Source: a virus | IMG/VR virus record: IMGVR_UViG_3300009151_000016 | Span: 1 to 37,257 of that record | Length of the DNA: 37,257 nucleotides | Strand: one strand, 5' to 3' | Shown here: positions 1 through 27,748 of the stretch, one piece after another | How positions within the stretch are numbered: position 1 is the first letter of the stretch | Layout: each line of letters begins with the position of its first letter | The notes under the pieces: model-generated | Databases searched by the model: none | Told to the model about the DNA's origin: nothing | Seen by the model: the letters and a program-made list of their open reading frames with translations, nothing else | Translations under genes and position numbers: made by a program

Positions 1-123
1 ATCTGTGGACACTTCGGTGTACTACCAACACAGTTAGGTATGACCGCTTCTGGTGCGCTAGGAGAAACAGGACATCAGCAAGGCGAAGCATCCACCGCTG
101 AAAACATTGGTATGCGCCCACTC
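1..123. repeat. Left copy of terminal direct repeat (circular assembly overlap)
   Basis: Bases 1-123 match 37135-37257 base for base. The portal reading frame is in phase across the join, so the simplest reading is that a circular or circularly permuted genome was written out with a short overlap. A true 123-bp physical terminal repeat is possible but would have to lie inside the portal coding region, which is unusual. Confidence 0.93.
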
Positions 124-2385
124 ATCATGTGGCTTGAAGATCTGTTGAATCAACTGTCATACCGCTTCCTTGATATGCCTAAAGACTTACGCTTCCAGTT
201 CAGCGATGGAACAGAAGCAGACGAAATGGCTCAAACCAGTCGCAGACAAATGGAGTTCTTTAGTGGTCTTAAACCATTGAATGAGGTTCGTAGCGAAATG
301 GGTTTGCCATTGTTCTCATTCCCTGAAGCCGATCAGCCATTAGTTGTTGCTGGTTCTGTATTAACTCCTGTAGCCGCCGCTTTTGAAACGGTTGCTGTTG
401 ACGCAGGAGAAACAGATCAGCAAGCGTTAAATGCAACTAATGATGTGGCTGTAGAAACAGAATCCAAATCTGCTGAACTAACTCAATTCATTAAATGGTC
501 TAAAGGTGACCGTAAGCGTGACTTCATGTTCAAAACTGTTGATGGTGAAACTGCTGACCGTTTGAATCATCTTGTCCGTCACGACACACAAGCCGCTCGT
601 GATTTAGCCGTGCATCTGCGTAAGGCAGGTGGTGTCCACCCAAAAGTCCACAAGGGAAGGGAACCCTTCCCCAAGAACCATCCAGCGCGAACGGTGTCGG
701 ACAGGCTCGTACGGATTTATACAGACCGATTCGCTTCGGTTGGGAGCGTTGACGCAGAGCGTTTAGCCAGTCAATTTCTGGAGACACCTACTTCGGCTCC
801 GCGCCAATGGTTGAAAGAAAAAAATGTTGTTGTTTATGGTGCTGACGCTGTAAGCCTGTTGGAAGATTTGTTTTACGAATCTGCATGGATGGGGACTGTG
901 GGTGCGCGTGTGTTGGTGCGCCGTTTGAAGAAAGCACAGAAAGCCCCATTGTCTGCGTCATCGGCTGATTGGGTTGATTGGAAGGCTGGCGATGCTGACG
1001 CGGCTAAACAACTGGTGTCTGACGGTATGGGTGCTGGTATGCGAGCAATGCTTGACCGTGCTTCTATTGAAATTAAGGGTATTAACGAAACCACTCTTGA
1101 TCGTATTAGCAACATCCTGAGCCGTGGTGTTGAGGCAGGTGCTACGCCTGTAACGGTTGGTAAAGAGATCCGCGACCTTGTTGGTGATCCACGCAGGGCT
1201 GAGATGATTGCTAATACTGAGATGGCTCGTGCTGTTAATGCTTCTAATGTGGATGAGTATCGCAATGCTGGTGTGACGATGGTTGAGTGGCAAACCGCTG
1301 GTGATGATGGTGTGTGTGAGGATTGCGCCGCTAATGAGGCTGACAATCCGTATGAGATTGGTTCTGAACCTGAAGCCCCTGCACATCCGAATTGTGGTTG
1401 CCAGATTGTTCCTGCGGCGTTTGAGGATTTGGTTGAGTTGACTCCTGATGAGCAGGCTGAGGCTGACGCAATTTTTGGTGATGTTCCTTTTGTTGAGCCT
1501 GAGTCTGATGAGGATCATGCGAATGTTCAGGACACGCATGAGTTGGTGAGTGAGGCTGAGATTCTTTCTCCACCAGAAGAATTGAAACCTGTACGCAACG
1601 AACCTAAATACGCTAGTGAAGAAATACAAAGCCGTATTCAACAGTTCTATGACGAAGTTCTTTATGACGCTAAAGGTAATTTTGTTCACGATTGGGATGG
1701 TTACACAGGTAAGGGTGACAAACTGATGGAACGCTTGTGGCGTGAACAAGGCTTTGATGCCAAACCCACACTTGTTAATGATGTTCAATATGACACATTA
1801 AAAGCACAAGGTTGGGAACCTGTCTATAGAGGCATCGCCGCCGAAACACCAGAAGTAGTACAGCAATATGTTGACGCATACAAACAGGGTGACCCGTTTG
1901 CAGGTAAAGGCATTTTTGGTAACGGCACCTATGCTTCTATCTCTGAAGAAACCGCAGTTCACTTCAGCGAACACACCGCTACTGGTAAAGAAGTCCCACA
2001 CGGAAAAGTTATGGACTTGTTAATAAATCCAGAAGCGCGAATTGTTGATTACGAAACCATGAAAACACAATTCAGGGAATCAATAACCGACATTTTGGCT
2101 GAGAAAAATGCGATCAAACAAGAGTACGGCTTAATGAAGGATTACATGATGACCCCTTCTGAACTTGAAGCGGCTAAAGCAAAAATGCCTGAGTTTGCCA
2201 GAAGCGAACTGCAACGCTATGAAACCCTGCAAGACACATTGGGTGCTGATCCGATGCGTTGGGCAACAGCAGAAGGAATAGATGTTGTCAGGATTGTTAA
2301 CCCAACAGTCAACCTTGCCGAAGGCGCATTGAACGATACCTACCTAGTTATTCTTAACCGTGGCGTAGTAGCCATAAGAAAGTAA
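1..2385 (+). CDS. Portal C-terminus fused to MuF head protein and ADP-ribosyltransferase-like domain (3' part)
   Basis: The frame is open from base 1 and continues the gene that starts at 36007; together they encode about 1170 residues. The portal part ends near base 400. The MuF part (about 480-1430) has the usual core with TEMARAVNAS, VEWQTAGDDG and a metal-site-like CEDC followed by HPNCGC (Cys near residues 815 and 818 of the joined protein). A Glu/Asp-rich linker follows. The last 270 residues contain YRGI (Arg near 986), GIFGNGTYAS and a terminal YLVILNRG strand, the layout of phage and toxin ADP-ribosyltransferases. The catalytic Glu is not assigned with confidence. MuF proteins are minor head proteins, and some carry C-terminal toxin domains. 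Fusion to the portal would hold the enzyme at the DNA exit vertex, which is inference. Base use changes from G/T-rich to A/C-rich near 1565, at the MuF/ART boundary. Confidence 0.85.
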   Translation: MCGHFGVLPTQLGMTASGALGETGHQQGEASTAENIGMRPLIMWLEDLLNQLSYRFLDMPKDLRFQFSDGTEADEMAQTSRRQMEFFSGLKPLNEVRSEMGLPLFSFPEADQPLVVAGSVLTPVAAAFETVAVDAGETDQQALNATNDVAVETESKSAELTQFIKWSKGDRKRDFMFKTVDGETADRLNHLVRHDTQAARDLAVHLRKAGGVHPKVHKGREPFPKNHPARTVSDRLVRIYTDRFASVGSVDAERLASQFLETPTSAPRQWLKEKNVVVYGADAVSLLEDLFYESAWMGTVGARVLVRRLKKAQKAPLSASSADWVDWKAGDADAAKQLVSDGMGAGMRAMLDRASIEIKGINETTLDRISNILSRGVEAGATPVTVGKEIRDLVGDPRRAEMIANTEMARAVNASNVDEYRNAGVTMVEWQTAGDDGVCEDCAANEADNPYEIGSEPEAPAHPNCGCQIVPAAFEDLVELTPDEQAEADAIFGDVPFVEPESDEDHANVQDTHELVSEAEILSPPEELKPVRNEPKYASEEIQSRIQQFYDEVLYDAKGNFVHDWDGYTGKGDKLMERLWREQGFDAKPTLVNDVQYDTLKAQGWEPVYRGIAAETPEVVQQYVDAYKQGDPFAGKGIFGNGTYASISEETAVHFSEHTATGKEVPHGKVMDLLINPEARIVDYETMKTQFRESITDILAEKNAIKQEYGLMKDYMMTPSELEAAKAKMPEFARSELQRYETLQDTLGADPMRWATAEGIDVVRIVNPTVNLAEGALNDTYLVILNRGVVAIRK

Positions 2386-7464: not shown

Positions 7465-7952
7465 GCAGAGCCACTATCCGTAATGCGGTGGCTACATACT
7501 TTGCGGCTCCAGCAGTCACGGGACTGAACAAAGTTTTTACTGCACACCCGAAGCGTATTGAAGCGTCATGGTATCGCTATGGTCAACCAGCAGGCACATA
7601 TTCTGGTGGTGTAGCCATTGTTGCAATCTTGGGTGAGAACGAAGAACGCCGTGGAATAGGTGGTGCTACTTCAGGTAAGAAATGGGTTCACTACGAAGTG
7701 CAACTAGAAGTTTTTATGCACTCAATTCAGCGTCACTCAGAGACAGCGATGGCTGATTTTGATACTCTTATGGACAACATCAAAGACAAATTAAGAGCAG
7801 ATAGATACTTAAATGCGTATCCGTCTGTGGTCTTTGAGGCAGGTGAAATGTATCTTGATGGGGTGTATGGTGAACCAAGAGTTCTTCAAGACGGGTCAAC
7901 CGAGATTTGGGGAGCGATCAGATTTGAAGTTAGTGAGTTTATAAACGCATGA
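7461..7952 (+). CDS. Neck protein, probable tail terminator
   Basis: A 163-residue protein that starts inside the stop of the connector gene. Features such as HYEVQLEVFMHS, DFDTLMDNIKDKLRAD and a C-terminal beta strand (EIWGAIRFEVSEF) fit the alpha/beta fold of siphovirus tail terminator proteins, which cap the tail tube at the head interface. A head-closure protein is the alternative. The stop overlaps the next ATG (ATGA), showing translational coupling. Confidence 0.55.
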   Translation: MSRATIRNAVATYFAAPAVTGLNKVFTAHPKRIEASWYRYGQPAGTYSGGVAIVAILGENEERRGIGGATSGKKWVHYEVQLEVFMHSIQRHSETAMADFDTLMDNIKDKLRADRYLNAYPSVVFEAGEMYLDGVYGEPRVLQDGSTEIWGAIRFEVSEFINA

Positions 7953-9536: not shown

Positions 9537-9911
9537 ATGAACCGACAATCATTACAAGGCGGATGGGTTGAATACCGAGAGCCAGAAAATGTGCCAGAAC
9601 GCCTACGGCGCGAAGTCACCAAACTCTCAACCAAAGGAGCCAAGTTCTCCACCCTCGCTGAAACAGATCCAGCAGAAATGAACGAAGAAGAACTAGAAAG
9701 CATGACCGATTTCATGTCAGCCTTCAACGATTCAGTAGCACTAGCACTTGTATCCGCATGGTCATTTGACGCACCAGTAACAAAAGACGGACTACTAGAC
9801 CTTCCATCATCTGCATACGATGAAATTGTTAAACATTGCACACCACTCGTATCACGACTCATGCCTAACTTCGGAGTTGACACAGACCCAAAAGCCCCTA
9901 CCGACATTTAA
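9537..9911 (+). CDS. Tail assembly chaperone, short product (gpG-like)
   Basis: A 124-residue acidic protein between the tail-tube and tape-measure genes, the standard place for the first tail assembly chaperone. ATG 9537 is chosen over ATG 9531 because AAGGAG ends at 9530. The C-terminal coding sequence contains a CCCAAAA slippery heptamer (9887-9893) in the correct phase for a -1 shift into the next frame. The stop overlaps the following ATG (TAATG). Confidence 0.8.
   Translation: MNRQSLQGGWVEYREPENVPERLRREVTKLSTKGAKFSTLAETDPAEMNEEELESMTDFMSAFNDSVALALVSAWSFDAPVTKDGLLDLPSSAYDEIVKHCTPLVSRLMPNFGVDTDPKAPTDI
9887..9893 (+). other. Programmed -1 frameshift site in the tail chaperone gene
   Basis: CCCAAAA is phased C-CCA-AAA, the X-XXY-YYZ form. 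A -1 slip continues at base 9893 with no stop and runs in frame into the 9911-10117 gene, giving a product of about 193 residues. Siphoviruses widely make a short and a long chaperone by -1 shifting at this position. The site is 16 bases before the zero-frame stop. Confidence 0.75.
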
Positions 9912-10117
9912 TGCGCATCGGTCACGCTGTTAAAACAGGTGTTGTTGATCATCGTTATCCTTTGCGTGAGGAGTTTCGCGATTATCAACTTGCAACAAAG
10001 TTTGGTTGGACTAAAAGCGAAATAAACGAGCAACCTGCCGTTTGGCTAGACTGGATGTTGGCGATTGACGCTGAGGTTCAGGAAGCGAGAGCAGATGCAA
10101 ATGGAAGCGACTTTTAA
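9911..10117 (+). CDS. Tail assembly chaperone, downstream frame (gpT-like extension)
   Basis: A 68-residue frame containing LREEFRDYQLATKFGWTKSEINEQPAVWLDWMLAIDAE, a pattern typical of the second frame of actinophage tail chaperones. It is probably mostly translated as the C-terminal extension of the upstream gene by -1 frameshifting. An ATG at 9911 would also permit separate initiation. Confidence 0.75.
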   Translation: MRIGHAVKTGVVDHRYPLREEFRDYQLATKFGWTKSEINEQPAVWLDWMLAIDAEVQEARADANGSDF

Positions 10118-10550
10118 CGACAATGGCGCGTTAAAACATTTCAATTCTTTGCCTAAGCATATTGATGATGCTGTGAAGAAGGCTGTTGATTTTGCTGGTG
10201 CTGAAGCGGTGCGTGAGATGACAGGCAAGCAGGGTTTGTCTATGTACGGTCGCCACAAGAAGGGAACACCTACACCTTCGCCTGCTGGTGATCCACCTGC
10301 ACAGGTAACAACGAACCTTCGTAAGTCGGTGAAGAAGTTTGCGGCACACCGTATTGGTTTTGGTAACTACTCTGTAAAAGTTATGCCTACTGCGATCTAT
10401 GCAAAAGCACAGGAACTTGGATTACCCGAAAGAGGTTTGCCAGCACGACCTTTTGTTGCACCTGCTAGAAATAGACTTAGTAAAAACAAACGACTAGAAC
10501 GAATGTTCCGTCACACTATGTATCAGGAGTTGAAGAAGCATCATGGCTGA
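10095..10550 (+). CDS. HK97-gp10-like neck/tail protein
   Basis: About 151 residues from ATG 10095 (a second ATG lies at 10101; an upstream TTG is less likely). Features include HIDDAVKKAVDFAGAEAV, the basic LRKSVKKF segment and GLPARPFVAPARNRL near the end, as in HK97 gp10-type proteins. Those normally sit before the major tail gene; here it follows the chaperones and precedes the tape measure. It overlaps the chaperone extension upstream and the tape measure by 8 bases. Confidence 0.6.
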   Translation: MQMEATFNDNGALKHFNSLPKHIDDAVKKAVDFAGAEAVREMTGKQGLSMYGRHKKGTPTPSPAGDPPAQVTTNLRKSVKKFAAHRIGFGNYSVKVMPTAIYAKAQELGLPERGLPARPFVAPARNRLSKNKRLERMFRHTMYQELKKHHG

Positions 10551-18210: not shown

Positions 18211-18290
18211 GTCCGTTTTTGTTTGTTGGCATTGGTGCAGGTGCTTGTTTGTTTGTGTTGTTGCTTCTTGAATTGTTGTTTGACGAGTAA
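18207..18290 (+). CDS. 27-residue single-span membrane peptide
   Basis: Coupled by ATGA to the endolysin stop and by TAATG to the next gene. The product is almost entirely one hydrophobic helix (FLFVGIGAGACLFVLLLLE) with a short acidic end. Overlaps on both sides make chance unlikely. It may tune holin function or be a lysis accessory. Confidence 0.6.
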   Translation: MSPFLFVGIGAGACLFVLLLLELLFDE

Positions 18291-19645
18291 TGCGTAAATG
18301 GCTGGCACTTTCTGTGTTGGTCATTGGGTTGACGGTGGGCTTGTCTAAAGCCGATGGTCAGCAAATAGGTTCGGGGTTGGATGCTGTTGGGTATTCAATT
18401 TCTGATGTTCCACCTTTGCGTTCTGATACTGAGTATCCGCAATGTGCTTCTGGTGTGTATGAGCAGATTAATTACACTTGGGATTACGAGCAGAACTTGT
18501 TTGGTGATTGTGGGTGGGATTCTTTTATGATTCATTACACGGGTGCGATCACTATTCCGCGTGGTGTTCAGTCGGTGCGTTTTGGTATTGCATCGGATGA
18601 TGGGTCTGATGTGACGATTGATGGTGTCAACTTTGGTTTGTGGGCTGACAAGGGTTGTTCGGTTGATTATTCGGATCGTGTTGTGTTGCCTACTGGTAAG
18701 CCGTTGAAGTTGGATGCGTGGTTTTACGAAAACGGGGGTGGCACTTGCTTCATGTTGTTTTGGCAGTTTGATAATGATTATGAGGATTGGGCTGTTGTTC
18801 CTGCGTGGGCGTTTTCTAGTGATGTTGTTGAGCCGACTACTACGACTGAAGAACCAACAACGACTACGACAACCACCAGCACAAGTACAACCACAACGAC
18901 ACAGGCACCAACCACAACCAGCACATCTACTACCACCACCGTTTTGAAAACGACAACGACAACAACGCCGCCGACAACGACAGAACCACAAACCACCACA
19001 TCAACATCTACGACCTCTACTTCCCTTGCTCCTAAAACTACTACTTCTACAAGCACGACTACGACCACTACGGAGCCTGAAACCACCACGACAGCCACGC
19101 CTAGAAGTACCACCACAAGCGTTGTAAGCCCCGTAGAGCCGACTTCTACCGTTCCCCCTACAACGACAACCACCACAATTCCTTCTACAACCACGACCCT
19201 GCCATCACCAGACAAGCCAGAGTTGGTGTCACCAGCCGTAGTTGAACTTTTGACCAACGCCGCGCAACTGCCACAAGCCGAAATCCAAAAAGCCGTGGAC
19301 AACATTGTGTCTGACGGAATCAGCAAATCAGAAGCAACAATGCTTTCCAGTAATCCAGACATCATTGCAAGCGTCACACCAGAACAAGCACATGAAATCT
19401 TTAACGCTGTTGATCAAGGAACATTGACTGATGCACAGGGAGCCGCGATTGTTGAAGCGGTGCAATCGGCACCTGTTGAGATCAGAAAACAATTTGAATC
19501 AGCAATAAATGTTTATGACGGTCACACCGATGGTTATGTTCCTGTCGGTTCCCTAGTGACGGTTAAGCAAAGACGAGTTATCATCGTAACTGGACTTGCA
19601 TTAGTGGCAGTTCCAATAGTGCCAGCAAGGAAACAAGATGAATAA
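18290..19645 (+). CDS. Secreted PA14-like protein with long Thr linker and C-terminal membrane anchor
   Basis: A 451-residue protein. It has a signal peptide (MRKWLALSVLVIGLTVGLS), then a PA14-like beta-barrel at about 35-180 with FGIASDDGSDVTIDGV and AWFYENGGGTCFMLFWQF. A linker of about 125 residues is made almost only of Thr, Ser and Pro. A helical domain at about 315-415 (VTPEQAHEIFNAVDQGTL) and a hydrophobic end (RRVIIVTGLALVAVPIV) with a basic tail follow. PA14 domains bind sugars. The plan is that of a host surface protein, not a virion protein. Being in the lysis block, it may cover receptors late in infection, act as a cell-wall adhesin, or help disrupt the envelope. Base use turns A/C-rich at the linker. 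Confidence 0.75.
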   Translation: MRKWLALSVLVIGLTVGLSKADGQQIGSGLDAVGYSISDVPPLRSDTEYPQCASGVYEQINYTWDYEQNLFGDCGWDSFMIHYTGAITIPRGVQSVRFGIASDDGSDVTIDGVNFGLWADKGCSVDYSDRVVLPTGKPLKLDAWFYENGGGTCFMLFWQFDNDYEDWAVVPAWAFSSDVVEPTTTTEEPTTTTTTTSTSTTTTTQAPTTTSTSTTTTVLKTTTTTTPPTTTEPQTTTSTSTTSTSLAPKTTTSTSTTTTTTEPETTTTATPRSTTTSVVSPVEPTSTVPPTTTTTTIPSTTTTLPSPDKPELVSPAVVELLTNAAQLPQAEIQKAVDNIVSDGISKSEATMLSSNPDIIASVTPEQAHEIFNAVDQGTLTDAQGAAIVEAVQSAPVEIRKQFESAINVYDGHTDGYVPVGSLVTVKQRRVIIVTGLALVAVPIVPARKQDE

Positions 19646-20049: not shown

Positions 20050-20254
20050 ACACAGAACCAATATCTGTTCGGTAGGAAAACTTCTGGAATCTTTAGAACC
20101 AGCAGTACGAAAAGAACTAACAGAAATAATTGATGACCATAATGTGAGTGCGGCATCCATTGAACGCCTTGCAACCGCTAAAGGTTGGCGTATTAAACGA
20201 GAAACTTTCTCTAACCACAGAATGAAAGCGTGTCGTTGTGTCGCTCAAAGATGA
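20015..20254 (+). CDS. Putative HTH DNA-binding protein
   Basis: About 79 residues from ATG 20015 with AAGGAG upstream, inside the end of the previous gene. The C-terminal half (NVSAASIERLATAKGWRIKR followed by NHRMKACRC) looks like a helix-turn-helix plus a basic Cys end, a pattern seen in small actinophage DNA-binding proteins. It overlaps the phosphoesterase gene by 17 bases, so the two are probably made together. Confidence 0.55.
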   Translation: MGTLREELKQFEHRTNICSVGKLLESLEPAVRKELTEIIDDHNVSAASIERLATAKGWRIKRETFSNHRMKACRCVAQR

Positions 20255-21314
20255 ACTAGAAAATAATAATGAGCGTTTGGAACTTCTTGCTTTTCAACGC
20301 CAAATTGAAAAGGCACAACGCGAAACAAGTGACGCTAAAGATCGTGCGCGTATTGCGGAAGAATCTTTTGACCGTGTTTCTAAGGAATTGGATTTGATGC
20401 TTGGTTTAACTACCAAAGTTTCTGAACCGCCTACTTGGTTAACAGCACCAAAGAAAGCAACTAAACACAGGGCTACTCCGTGGTTGTTGTTGTCGGATCT
20501 GCATTTGGATGAGGTTGTGCAACCTTTAGAAGTGTTGGGCATGAATGCGTACAGCAGAAAAATTGCTGAAATGCGATTGGCAAATGTTTTTACTGGTACA
20601 ACAAAAGTTTTAAGGGACTATTGGACTGGCATTAACTATGACGGAATTGTTTGTCCTTTAATGGGTGACATTTATTCGGGAGATATCCATGAGGAACTCA
20701 CACAAACAAACGAGGACACCCTTTTGGGATCTATTATTCATTGGGTTGATCATCTTGCCGCTGGTATTTCTTTACTTGGTGACGAGTTTGGCAAGGTTCA
20801 TGTGCCTGTGGTTGTTGGGAATCACAGCAGGCGTACCAGAAAGCCACGAAGCAAGTTCCGCGCACGAGATAACTTTGATTGGTTCACAGGAAAACTTCTC
20901 CAAAAAATGTTCCAGAACGACAAGCGCATTACCTTTGATGTGTCGGAATCGCCAGACACAATAGTTACTACTTACGGTCATCGTGTGATGGTTACTCATG
21001 GTGATCAAGCGTCTGGTGGTAATGGTATTGGTGGTGCGTTCATGCCTGTGATGCGTCTTGACGCTAAGAAGCGCGCACGGCAAGCGGCGGTGAATCAGCA
21101 GTTTGATTTGATGGTGTTGGGGCATTGGCACACGCTGATGTTTGCACCAAACTTTGTGGTGAATGGAACCACTAAGGGATATGACGAATACGCTTTTACT
21201 TCTAACTTCGGATATGAGGAACCTTCGCAAGCGTTGTTTCTTATGACTCCTGAACACGGCAAAACTTTTACTGCACCAATTCATTGTGCTGACCGTAAGA
21301 AAGAGGGCTGGTGA
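20238..21314 (+). CDS. Calcineurin-like metallophosphoesterase
   Basis: A 358-residue protein with a GTG start. After an N-terminal coiled coil (RLELLAFQRQIEKAQRE) it shows the ordered metal motifs of the family: SDLHLD, MGDIYSGD, VVGNHSRR, VTHGDQ and GHWH. These ligate two metals for phosphodiester or phosphomonoester hydrolysis. Relatives include Mre11/SbcD nucleases and cyclic-nucleotide phosphodiesterases. A DNA end-processing role is plausible beside a DNA-binding protein, but the substrate cannot be read from sequence. Confidence 0.82.
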   Translation: MSLKDELENNNERLELLAFQRQIEKAQRETSDAKDRARIAEESFDRVSKELDLMLGLTTKVSEPPTWLTAPKKATKHRATPWLLLSDLHLDEVVQPLEVLGMNAYSRKIAEMRLANVFTGTTKVLRDYWTGINYDGIVCPLMGDIYSGDIHEELTQTNEDTLLGSIIHWVDHLAAGISLLGDEFGKVHVPVVVGNHSRRTRKPRSKFRARDNFDWFTGKLLQKMFQNDKRITFDVSESPDTIVTTYGHRVMVTHGDQASGGNGIGGAFMPVMRLDAKKRARQAAVNQQFDLMVLGHWHTLMFAPNFVVNGTTKGYDEYAFTSNFGYEEPSQALFLMTPEHGKTFTAPIHCADRKKEGW

Positions 21315-21559
21315 ACATTGACCCGTGGGATGAAGATGATGAAGATGATGAGATCAGTAACTTTGCTGACACCGATTTGTATCCGTACAACATCTTCATG
21401 GTTCAACGACTTGTAGAAGTGAACCCTGATGGTGTGTCCACTTCTATCGTTGTGTTTCTTGGCGACTCTGAACACGAAGCACAGGTGGGTTTGATGTTGC
21501 ATCCTAAAACGGCGTTGCAGTTGGCGGCAAACATTATTGAAGTGGCTATTGAGTCGTGA
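21311..21559 (+). CDS. Small acidic protein between phosphoesterase and Ntn-hydrolase
   Basis: An 82-residue protein with a GTG start coupled (GTGA) to the phosphoesterase stop, and ending in a GTGA overlap with the next gene. The first 20 residues are very acidic (PWDEDDEDDE); the rest is alpha/beta with MVQRLVEVNPDG and KTALQLAANIIEVAI. Function unknown; coupling suggests a shared process with its neighbours. Confidence 0.65.
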   Translation: MNIDPWDEDDEDDEISNFADTDLYPYNIFMVQRLVEVNPDGVSTSIVVFLGDSEHEAQVGLMLHPKTALQLAANIIEVAIES

Positions 21560-22125
21560 CAACGATTGTGGCGGTGCAGGGCAACGGGTGGGTTGTTGTG
21601 GGGTGGGATGCTCGTGTCGCTGAGGATGGTGGGCGTGTCTTTAATGCTGGTAAGAACTGGTCAAAGGTTGTTCGGAACAATGGTTACTTGTTGGGTGCCG
21701 CTGGTGATGTTCGCGCAATCAATCTTTTGCATCATGTGTTTCACCCTGCAAAGGCTGACGGTTTGACGGGTATCAAGTTGGATCGGTTTATGACTGGCAA
21801 GTTCATTCCTTCTTTGCGTGAAGTGTTTGAGTCTGAGGGGTACATGGCTGGTTCGCGTTCACAGGCTGAGGAGCATGGGTCAACTGTGTTGGTGGTGGTG
21901 AATGGTGTGGTGTTTGAGATCGGTAGCGATTGGGCGTGGGTGCGTGACGACTCTGGTTTGTATGCGATTGGTTCTGGTGGTGATTATGCGTTGGGTGTGT
22001 TGGCGGTGTCGGATGTTTCTACGGTTGACGCTTGCAAACAATCTGTGCTTGCTTCGTTGAAGGTGGCTTCACGGTTTGATGCGGCAACTGCTTCGCCGTT
22101 CTTCACACAATCTGTTCTTACATAA
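21556..22125 (+). CDS. Proteasome/HslV-like Ntn-hydrolase
   Basis: A 189-residue protein with a GTG start. It begins MTTIVAVQGNGWVVVGWDAR, matching HslV and proteasome beta subunits. Removal of Met would expose a catalytic Thr; the family Asp (WDAR) and a Lys (GKNWSK) follow, and AIGSGGDYALG is the conserved GSGG stretch. These enzymes are self-compartmentalised threonine proteases. No ATPase partner such as HslU is seen here. It may process virion or host proteins or act with or against the host proteasome; this is inference. Confidence 0.78.
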   Translation: MTTIVAVQGNGWVVVGWDARVAEDGGRVFNAGKNWSKVVRNNGYLLGAAGDVRAINLLHHVFHPAKADGLTGIKLDRFMTGKFIPSLREVFESEGYMAGSRSQAEEHGSTVLVVVNGVVFEIGSDWAWVRDDSGLYAIGSGGDYALGVLAVSDVSTVDACKQSVLASLKVASRFDAATASPFFTQSVLT

Positions 22126-22193
22126 TCTGCAAGTGACACGCGTTGTTTGTGTCTTGATAGAACTGGTGTCCCCCCTAAAGATGGAGATGCAAG

Positions 22194-22328
22194 ATGAGTG
22201 TTGATGATGTGATGTTGGCTTTGGAGTTTCTGCGCCGTTGTGTTCCGCGTGGTCATGTTGAGGAAGATGCGTTGGTTGGTGTGATCCAACGGTTAGAACG
22301 CGCTGTTGGTTTAGTTCCTTCGGTCTGA
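22194..22328 (+). CDS. 44-residue small helical protein
   Basis: ATG 22194 has GGAG about 8 bases upstream. The product (VMLALEFLRRCVPRGHVEED) is helical and mildly amphipathic. It is the last plus-strand gene before the convergent SprT-like gene, ending 3 bases from that gene's end. Function unknown. Confidence 0.5.
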   Translation: MSVDDVMLALEFLRRCVPRGHVEEDALVGVIQRLERAVGLVPSV

Positions 22329-22331
22329 GGT

Positions 22332-23051
22332 TCATCCCGTTGCAGGGAACTTCAATCCGACTATCCCTTGTTTCTCTAGCGAGTTGATAATGATGCTGTC
22401 CACTTTGTATCCCCACGCTTTTGATGTTGCGGTGTGTCCGTTGATTGTGTGCCATCCGTCTATGCGTACTTTCCATCTGCGTTCTGTTACATCGCGCAAC
22501 ATCTTGTAGAAGGTTTCTCCGTGACCGCCTTCGTTTCCTCTGCCGTGAACGCTTCGGTATGCGGCGTGGCATAGTTCGTGCGCTAATACTTCCCATGCGC
22601 GTACGCCACCTTCGTGACCACGCATCACACGGATTGTTGCTGTTGCACCATCACACCATCCTGACTCGCCACGCTTTTGACGAGTATAAACAATTCTAAG
22701 TTTTGGCATTGGTCGGTGTGAGTGTGCGCCGAACAATTCCCAAAGGCGTTCTGCTTCTTTTTGAAAGATTGCATCGCGTTGTTTGATTTTCTTTTGTTCG
22801 TCACGCACCGCTTTTGTTTGTGTAGAAACTTTAGCGCGTTTTGTTTTTGTTTTGATTGCTGACTTTTCTTTTGATGCTTCGCGTTTCTTTTCTAATGCTG
22901 GTGCAACTCGCATAACAAGTGTTCCTTGTTTTGATGAGCATGGTAAGCAGTAACGGCGTATGTCGTTCATGCGTGGTCGTGATGGTGCTAGTAGTCCGTG
23001 ATCGCAGGTTGGGCATTTCCAACGAACTTGTTTTGTTGTTGTGGTTGTCAT
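22332..23051 (-). CDS. SprT-like zinc metalloprotease
   Basis: A 239-residue protein with an N-terminal zinc ribbon (Cys13, 16, 35, 38), a Lys-rich linker to about 95, and a protease core with HELCH (His158, Glu159, His162) and a downstream His177 in GGHGETF. This is the SprT/Spartan layout. Spartan enzymes cut proteins cross-linked to DNA. In a phage it could remove host proteins from DNA, or be an anti-defence protein; this is inference. It is the second gene of a reverse-strand operon, 14 bases after 23066-23254. Confidence 0.78.
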   Translation of the reverse strand: MTTTTTKQVRWKCPTCDHGLLAPSRPRMNDIRRYCLPCSSKQGTLVMRVAPALEKKREASKEKSAIKTKTKRAKVSTQTKAVRDEQKKIKQRDAIFQKEAERLWELFGAHSHRPMPKLRIVYTRQKRGESGWCDGATATIRVMRGHEGGVRAWEVLAHELCHAAYRSVHGRGNEGGHGETFYKMLRDVTERRWKVRIDGWHTINGHTATSKAWGYKVDSIIINSLEKQGIVGLKFPATG

Positions 23052-26797: not shown

Positions 26798-27014
26798 AAT
26801 GGCTTCGTGTCGTGGAATGAATGTGAATGTGTTTTATCCGAAACATAATGAGTATGCAGAACCGCGCCGTGTTTGTAAGGATTGTGTTGTTCAGCGTGAG
26901 TGTTTGGATTCCACTTTGTATCGCGACAATGACAACTATGGAATGTTTGGTGGGTTGACTCCTATGGAGCGTCACACTTTAAGGGAGAGCCAAATGAGGT
27001 GGAAACCGCTGTGA
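26781..27014 (+). CDS. whiB: WhiB-family Fe-S transcription regulator
   Basis: 77 residues from ATG 26781 (26784 is possible). Four Cys at 10, 32, 35 and 41 have the WhiB spacing (C-x21-C-x2-C-x5-C), followed by GMFGGLTPMER, the variant of the G-[IV]-W-G-G turn and basic tail. WhiB proteins are found in Actinobacteria and their phages, bind a 4Fe-4S cluster and contact the main sigma factor. Phage WhiB can silence host genes and block superinfection. This is the strongest single host indicator. Confidence 0.88.
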   Translation: MMNWYEMASCRGMNVNVFYPKHNEYAEPRRVCKDCVVQRECLDSTLYRDNDNYGMFGGLTPMERHTLRESQMRWKPL

Positions 27015-27748
27015 AAGCGCACCAGCGGATCATTCGTGAGCGCGAAGCATCAGGAGATACAACCGATTGGCGTTTGTTTGAAGATGATTACCAGTCCGTT
27101 AATTGCGACATCAGTAACGCCGTTGTTCGTGAAGTCTCGTATGGAACTGCAAAAGAAATCATTATGAAATACGAATGGCTTGGCTCTATGCCTGCCGCTG
27201 TAATTAAATGTTTTGGTATTTTTTATGATCATTTGTGTGCTGGTGTTGTTGTGTATTCAACGGAGTATTCAGAAAATCTTGGTGTGTGGGACAAGTTTGG
27301 TTACACAAACAAAATGATTTTGTTGTCTCGTGGTGCGTGTGTTCATTGGGCGCATGAACATTCTGCTTCTAAATTGATTCGTCAATCTATGCGAATGCTT
27401 CCCGATAAATATGAGGTTGTTACTTGCACGGTTGATCCTGCGGCTGGCGAGATAGGAACCATTTATCAGGCGTGTGGGTTTTATTATGTGGGGGCTATGC
27501 GTGAGGCTAATCGTGATGCGTGGATGATTAACGGCAAACTTGTTGGTGAACGGTCGTTGCGTAAGATGATTGGAACTCAAAAGAAGGAAGAAGTGTTGAA
27601 GCGTTTTCCTCATGCTGAGTTTGTTAAACAATTTAATAAGGGTCGGTACTTTGCTTTTCGTGGTTCACGATTGGTTAAGAGAACGCATCTGGCGGCTCTT
27701 GAACATTTGATAAAGCCGTACCCTAAGAGAGTGAATGATGGAATCTAA
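26999..27748 (+). CDS. Mom-like DNA-modification enzyme (GNAT fold)
   Basis: 249 residues from a GTG at 26999, with AAGGGAG upstream. The core (GTAKEIIMKYEWLGSMP, then LSRGACVHWAHEHSASKLI and GTIYQACGFYYVGAM) matches the GNAT-like phage Mu Mom group, which alters adenine in phage DNA to resist restriction. The basic C-terminal region (RGSRLVKRTHLAALEHLIK) could bind DNA. It lies between WhiB and a putative nuclease. Other GNAT roles cannot be excluded. Confidence 0.68.
   Translation: METAVKAHQRIIREREASGDTTDWRLFEDDYQSVNCDISNAVVREVSYGTAKEIIMKYEWLGSMPAAVIKCFGIFYDHLCAGVVVYSTEYSENLGVWDKFGYTNKMILLSRGACVHWAHEHSASKLIRQSMRMLPDKYEVVTCTVDPAAGEIGTIYQACGFYYVGAMREANRDAWMINGKLVGERSLRKMIGTQKKEEVLKRFPHAEFVKQFNKGRYFAFRGSRLVKRTHLAALEHLIKPYPKRVNDGI

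Follow-up and report, generated by a model that had tools for sequence, protein, structure and literature searches.

A proteasome-like N-terminal-threonine hydrolase from a widespread, almost wholly viral clade

The window analyzed here, i.e., the whole 37,257-bp IMG/VR virus record IMGVR_UViG_3300009151_000016, carries on its plus strand a gene (positions 21556–22125) that opens with GTG and encodes a protein of 189 amino acids, which family profiles and a predicted fold place among the proteasome-like Ntn hydrolases. Its start codon overlaps the stop codon of the upstream gene in the form of GTGA. The upstream gene (21311–21559, plus strand) encodes a small protein of 82 amino acids with an acidic N-terminus and shares a GTGA overlap with each of its two neighbors, while the gene before it (20238–21314, plus strand) encodes a calcineurin-like phosphoesterase/exonuclease of 358 amino acids matching phrog_284 “exonuclease” at 5e-45. 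The acidic protein and the phosphoesterase pointed out in an earlier reading of the sequence only are hence both real genes. The 82-aa protein has homologs at three loci (L014, L095, and L096, of which L096 has no protease), and the acidic N-terminus is poorly conserved in them. A single-protein scan of viral contigs with the 82-aa protein found nothing, and its model, a low-confidence beta-beta-beta-alpha fold, matched no PDB entry at E ≤ 0.001. Downstream of the protease, a 44-aa ORF (22194–22328, plus strand) is conserved in L014, L095, and L096 and marks the 3′ edge of what we describe below as an exchangeable slot.

Several other features of the window were noticed in passing. A similar short leader, GTGTCCCCC..TA.AGATGGAG, was recognized by eye ahead of the 44-aa gene both in the window (22160–22195) and in L095 (about 7470–7504). 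Beside the slot, on the opposite strand, 22332–23051 encodes a SprT-like zinc metallopeptidase, the Pfam SprT-like match of which (6.8e-6) is barely above the cut-off. No RNA family or tRNA was found near the protease locus. The plus-strand gene at 18290–19645 encodes a protein with a long Thr-rich low-complexity stretch, whose ends are conserved in L014, L095, and L096 and weakly in L094. The head genes are located at 0–7 kb, and one long ORF among the first positions (40–2385, plus strand) has matches to portal PHROGs as well as to head-morphogenesis PHROGs, which points to a fusion. Also, a Mom-like DNA modification protein (26999–27748, plus strand; phrog_1384, 7e-23) has distant relatives in Proteus and Staphylococcus phages. 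Comparison of the terminase, tape measure, tail, and Mom-like proteins gave no clear prophage or host assignment.

The family signal of the 21556–22125 product far exceeds chance. Among the PHROG profiles, phrog_1040 “peptidase HslV family” was matched with E = 2.3e-19, and the profile of the family matched the solved structures of HslV (1.7e-18), the betaproteobacteria proteasome homolog (BPH; PDB 5ovs, 5ovt, and 5ovu) (6e-16), and bacterial 20S beta subunits (about 5e-11). The Pfam Proteasome model (PF00227) was matched by 23 of the 31 family members at E ≤ 0.01, with 3e-8 as the best value. The window protein alone scored 15.6 bits against PF00227, which is under the curated cut-off of 22.4, but we weigh the profile and fold evidence more heavily than this single-sequence score for the family placement. 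In tblastn, Actinomycetia phage DSL-LC01 encoded the closest phage relative (50.5% identity, 2e-49), with the next ones in phages of Vibrio, Psychrobacter, Microbacterium, Arthrobacter, Tenacibaculum, Geobacillus, and Moorella; the cultured phages with a relative include Microbacterium phage Pumpernickel and Arthrobacter phage Hum25.

The AlphaFold2 model of the protease, built from 25 sequences (pLDDT 89.1, pTM 0.86), is of a single chain and shows the alpha-beta-beta-alpha fold with helices at residues 52–60, 72–93, 142–151, and 157–174. By using VIA-align, BPH (5ovs) was its best structural match (Z 19.6, rmsd 2.7, 175 residues), and 20S beta, Anbu, and HslV came next at about Z 18; the matches in Foldseek were also BPH, 20S beta, Anbu, and HslV. 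The motifs that had been picked out by eye (the MTTIVAV start, WDAR, and GSGG) are all present in the product, and the predicted catalytic residues, all on the plus strand, are Thr2 (mature T1; 21559–21561), Asp18 (mature D17; 21607–21609), Lys37 (equivalent to K33; 21664–21666), the oxyanion Gly47 (21694–21696), Ser140 (equivalent to S129; 21973–21975), and Asp175 (equivalent to D166; 22078–22080). Thr2, Asp18, Lys37, and Gly47 thereby correspond to the Thr/Ser1, Asp17, Lys33, and Gly47 that define the proteasome-like family. Across the 31 aligned sequences, Asp18, Lys37, and Gly47 are invariant; position 2 is Thr in the phage representatives, with Ser in one, and a lone His at mature position 1 comes from the wrongly set start of L012, which reads Thr in the 31-sequence alignment. 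The position of Ser140 is occupied by Ser in most relatives and by Thr or Cys in the others, and that of Asp175 is mostly Asp. A catalytic Lys in the GKNWSK stretch had been proposed, and it does fall there; nonetheless, the predicted catalytic residue is K37 of WSK and not K33 of GKN, because Lys37 (in WSKVV) is invariant in the 31 sequences while K33 varies. The catalytic Lys of HslV was shifted by a gap in the MAFFT alignment and was placed on K37 by the profile alignment.

The relatives of the protease are under purifying selection, with a median dN/dS of ~0.05 over 112 pairs that were drawn between relatives, leaving out the window itself, and that include some redundant near-copies; values near 1 were obtained in two pairs of highly divergent, saturated sequences. 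The product of 21556–22125 is therefore, as its conserved residues, profile matches, and model agree, a proteasome-like N-terminal-threonine hydrolase; it belongs to group I of Fuchs et al. 2021, the compact group of HslV/BPH-like proteins, and the complete active site suspected from the motifs was borne out. The protease is probably active.

The name HslV, in contrast, did not hold for this protein. While it shares with HslV the fold, Thr1/Asp17/Lys33/Gly47, and the GSGG motif, its scores against the NCBIfam HslV equivalogs were only 26.1 against a cut-off of 137 bits and 24.6 against 157.75, and the residues aligned with the pore cluster of HslV (Arg86/Arg89/Lys90) are Gly, Ala, and Gly. Furthermore, the pore loop (about residues 94–109) is longer than that of HslV and similar in length to that of BPH, without a run of Asp/Glu. 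A strict HslV identity is ruled out by the equivalog scores, the position in the trees (see below), and the missing basic pore cluster. As the sequence-only reading had also remarked, no HslU or other unfoldase was seen with the gene: a search of the 37,257-bp record for AAA and AAA_2 ATPases gave neither, although this record is possibly incomplete and the virus may still encode one. Among 14 other protease-bearing records, which are possibly fragments, AAA_2 was present in only one and away from the protease. HslV without HslU was noted in 2020 in the Salmonella jumbo phage pSal-SNUABM-04 (PMC7823757), and BPH is likewise without a partner ATPase (PMC5777263).

Relatives of the protease are very widespread among viruses. 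An alignment-based scan was needed, as a single-protein scan of viral contigs with the protease had found nothing, and 408 IMG/VR contigs encoding a relative were thereby detected. Of two pattern scans that covered 85,000 species genomes of bacteria and archaea, the first found no relative, and the second found a single one (L094, a contig in a Gammaproteobacteria metagenome-assembled genome); both of these scans reach close relatives only. L094 may be a phage contig inside this genome, because the phosphoesterase adjoining its protease belongs to the large-phage family. In a profile search of 398 Pseudomonadota genomes, the inspected hits were HslV and BPH apart from the L094 contig, and two strong matches (E 4e-50 and 1.5e-46) came from the same kind of search in 385 Alphaproteobacteria; one of them is in an ordinary chromosomal setting and the other is amid possibly phage-derived genes, as read from the translations of the neighbors only. 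A protease relative at L144 (about 9764–10342) is located in an alphaproteobacterial chromosome, where the neighbors read like 2-oxoglutarate dehydrogenase components and no obvious phage genes were noticed. Searching plasmids by tblastn with the protease hit two Bacillus licheniformis plasmids at 23%, and with the Arthrobacter-phage relative as the query there was no match.

In the trees, HslV (100/99–100) and BPH (99–100/99) each form a separate clade with the window protein inside neither, and a branch with the support of 97/89 sets the phage proteins together with the two alphaproteobacterial ones apart from HslV and BPH; the long branches leave the deepest order unsure. The window protein falls into a sub-branch (99/94) with ct2KA10, the proteins of Microbacterium and Arthrobacter phages, and those of aquatic viral contigs. 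Apart from this sub-branch is a group of the two alphaproteobacterial proteins and the proteins of Vibrio, Psychrobacter, Geobacillus, and Moorella phages, which we take as the AAH type described by Fuchs et al. (2021), judging by its hosts. The window protease is in an almost wholly viral clade, which in the trees is the sister of this putative AAH-type clade.

Among the known systems, BPH is the closest in structure, and its sequence is matched over the full length. The two proteins share the spacing of the catalytic Lys, the long pore loop, the absence of a propeptide, and the lack of a known unfoldase, but are only 17–19% identical and belong to separate clades; also, the window pore loop has no acidic run, and a counterpart of the acidic cavity of BPH is not clearly evident. 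Like AAH, the window protein is a group I proteasome-like protein without a propeptide, of a kind found in bacteria and many phages, and the putative AAH-type clade is a close relative in the trees, yet the window belongs to the separate 99/94 branch, which may or may not itself be of the AAH type. No actinobacterial phage bearing AAH was reported by Fuchs et al. 2021 (PMC8665760). Another phage-encoded group I proteasome homolog, PPH, is about 140 amino acids long and lacks helix H2, and the identity with PPH is excluded by the size of the window protein (189 amino acids) and by its modeled H2 (helices 52–60 and 72–93) (PMC8665760). With HslV of pSal-SNUABM-04, which is from another type of phage, the likeness is at the level of the broad phage family (phrog_1040) and in the absence of an HslU partner.

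Taking these together, the reading that we favor, with a confidence somewhat above even, is that of an ATP-independent, BPH-like homo-oligomeric Ntn peptidase, in which Thr1 would be exposed by removal of Met and the gene of which would probably be optional to the phage. Methionine aminopeptidase of the host would remove fMet, leaving Thr1 at the N-terminus; no self-processing would be needed because Thr2 directly follows the initiator Met, and the self-processing at Thr2 that had been suggested is hence not expected, in line with BPH, which also has no propeptide (PMC5777263). Thr1 would then attack peptide bonds with Lys and Asp as partners, and the subunits would, by analogy with BPH, form a homo-oligomeric chamber of one ring or two; BPH itself forms heptameric double rings and binds epoxomicin with neither an unfoldase nor a propeptide (PMC5777263). 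During infection, such a chamber would need no dedicated ATPase, and its substrates would be unfolded or specific proteins of the host or the phage. Of the three roles considered at the outset (joining host chambers, forming its own ring, and interfering with protein turnover of the host), its own ring thus appears the likeliest on the BPH analogy. No cleavage of standard peptides or casein by BPH was observed, however (PMC5777263), and homology to it does not guarantee a general protease. A wider proposal, which we put forward only tentatively, is that ATP-independent proteasome-like chambers make up a large clade carried by phages, with the window protein among them; this clade would be sister to AAH, would include actinobacteriophages, would not have been described by Fuchs et al. 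2021, and would act during infection by degrading or processing certain proteins of the host.

Alternatively, an AAA+ unfoldase of the host might feed the phage chamber, such as Mpa/ARC if the host is an actinobacterium, or another ring of the Clp type. A proteasome ATPase is present in many actinobacteria, and the presence of the protease relatives in Microbacterium and Arthrobacter phages would fit with such a supply. The inertness of BPH relatives in vitro, possibly for want of a cofactor, would fit as well (PMC5777263). Given that the basic pore residues of the HslV type are not conserved and the pore loop exceeds that of HslV in length, nonetheless, we regard feeding by the host as rather unlikely. 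It is also quite unlikely that the protein is a substrate-specific processing enzyme or ligase instead of a shredder. A precedent is provided by the monomeric connectase, a specific ligase with a proteasome-like fold (PMC8665760), but connectase lacks the first helix pair, whereas the window model has both pairs of the ring-forming members and no counterpart of the helical insertion of connectase.

The neighborhood of the gene bears on a further proposal, in which the phosphoesterase, the small protein, and the protease would constitute one functional module. All three genes are linked by the GTGA overlaps, and their order (with the phrog_284 phosphoesterase) is the same in the window and L095, to which extent the coupling of three genes described in the sequence-only reading stands. 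In L014, the small protein and the protease are kept, but the phosphoesterase is of phrog_20266 and has no detectable similarity to that of the window. Relatives of this other family recur just upstream of the protease in many contigs of a separate large-phage lineage and also in L094. When the protease-bearing records were searched with phrog_221, a match was obtained in four of the 22, the only match of that type being a phosphoesterase of this kind, and the matched enzyme adjoins the protease at all four loci, L014 and L094 included. These recurrences favor a module; against it, L096 has retained three of the genes (phosphoesterase, small, and 44-aa) while an unrelated 90-aa ORF (L096: 9281–9553) fills the slot of the protease, and no protease was found on the L096 record. 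Members of both phosphoesterase families are also present in phages in which no such protease is annotated alongside, and in Clavibacter phage CN1A the enzyme comes after the lysis genes; the two genes may hence be neighbors through a common site of insertion. Most of the protease clade, furthermore, has no phosphoesterase beside the protease. A functional module is accordingly improbable in our view, and we read the locus as an exchangeable slot beside a common position of the phosphoesterase. Because the sister phage L096 has an unrelated ORF in its place, the protease is probably an accessory, i.e., optional, gene.

Two other roles are less probable still. The subunit could join the proteasome rings of the host and poison or redirect them, for which its fold near bacterial 20S beta subunits (Z about 18) might speak; this is very improbable, however, in that purifying selection maintains the active site, whereas an inactive poison subunit could do without one, and that the protease sequence is far from that of 20S beta. 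A role as a virion or prohead maturation protease, hinted at by some large relatives (L069, L080, and L093) in which portal-like genes directly follow the gene, is the least probable of all, as the window protease is outside the head module, the gene is missing from the sister L096, and known prohead proteases have other folds.

Phage proteasome homologs including AAH and PPH have already been published (PMC8665760), HslV without HslU is also known, and the family is annotated in PHROGs, so that the window mainly extends the annotation. What it adds is a member, complete-looking and strongly conserved, of a large branch of viral proteins to which phages of actinobacteria contribute, and no study on the function of this clade was found in the literature searched.

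Most work on proteasome-like chambers has dealt with cells in which a motor supplies the chamber. The phage clade described here is broad, has a complete and strongly conserved active site, and is motor-less in nearly all records searched; it offers a tractable system, in which the role of motor-less members such as BPH and AAH, a question open since 2017–2021, can be addressed, and the relatives in Pumpernickel and Hum25 make knock-outs feasible.
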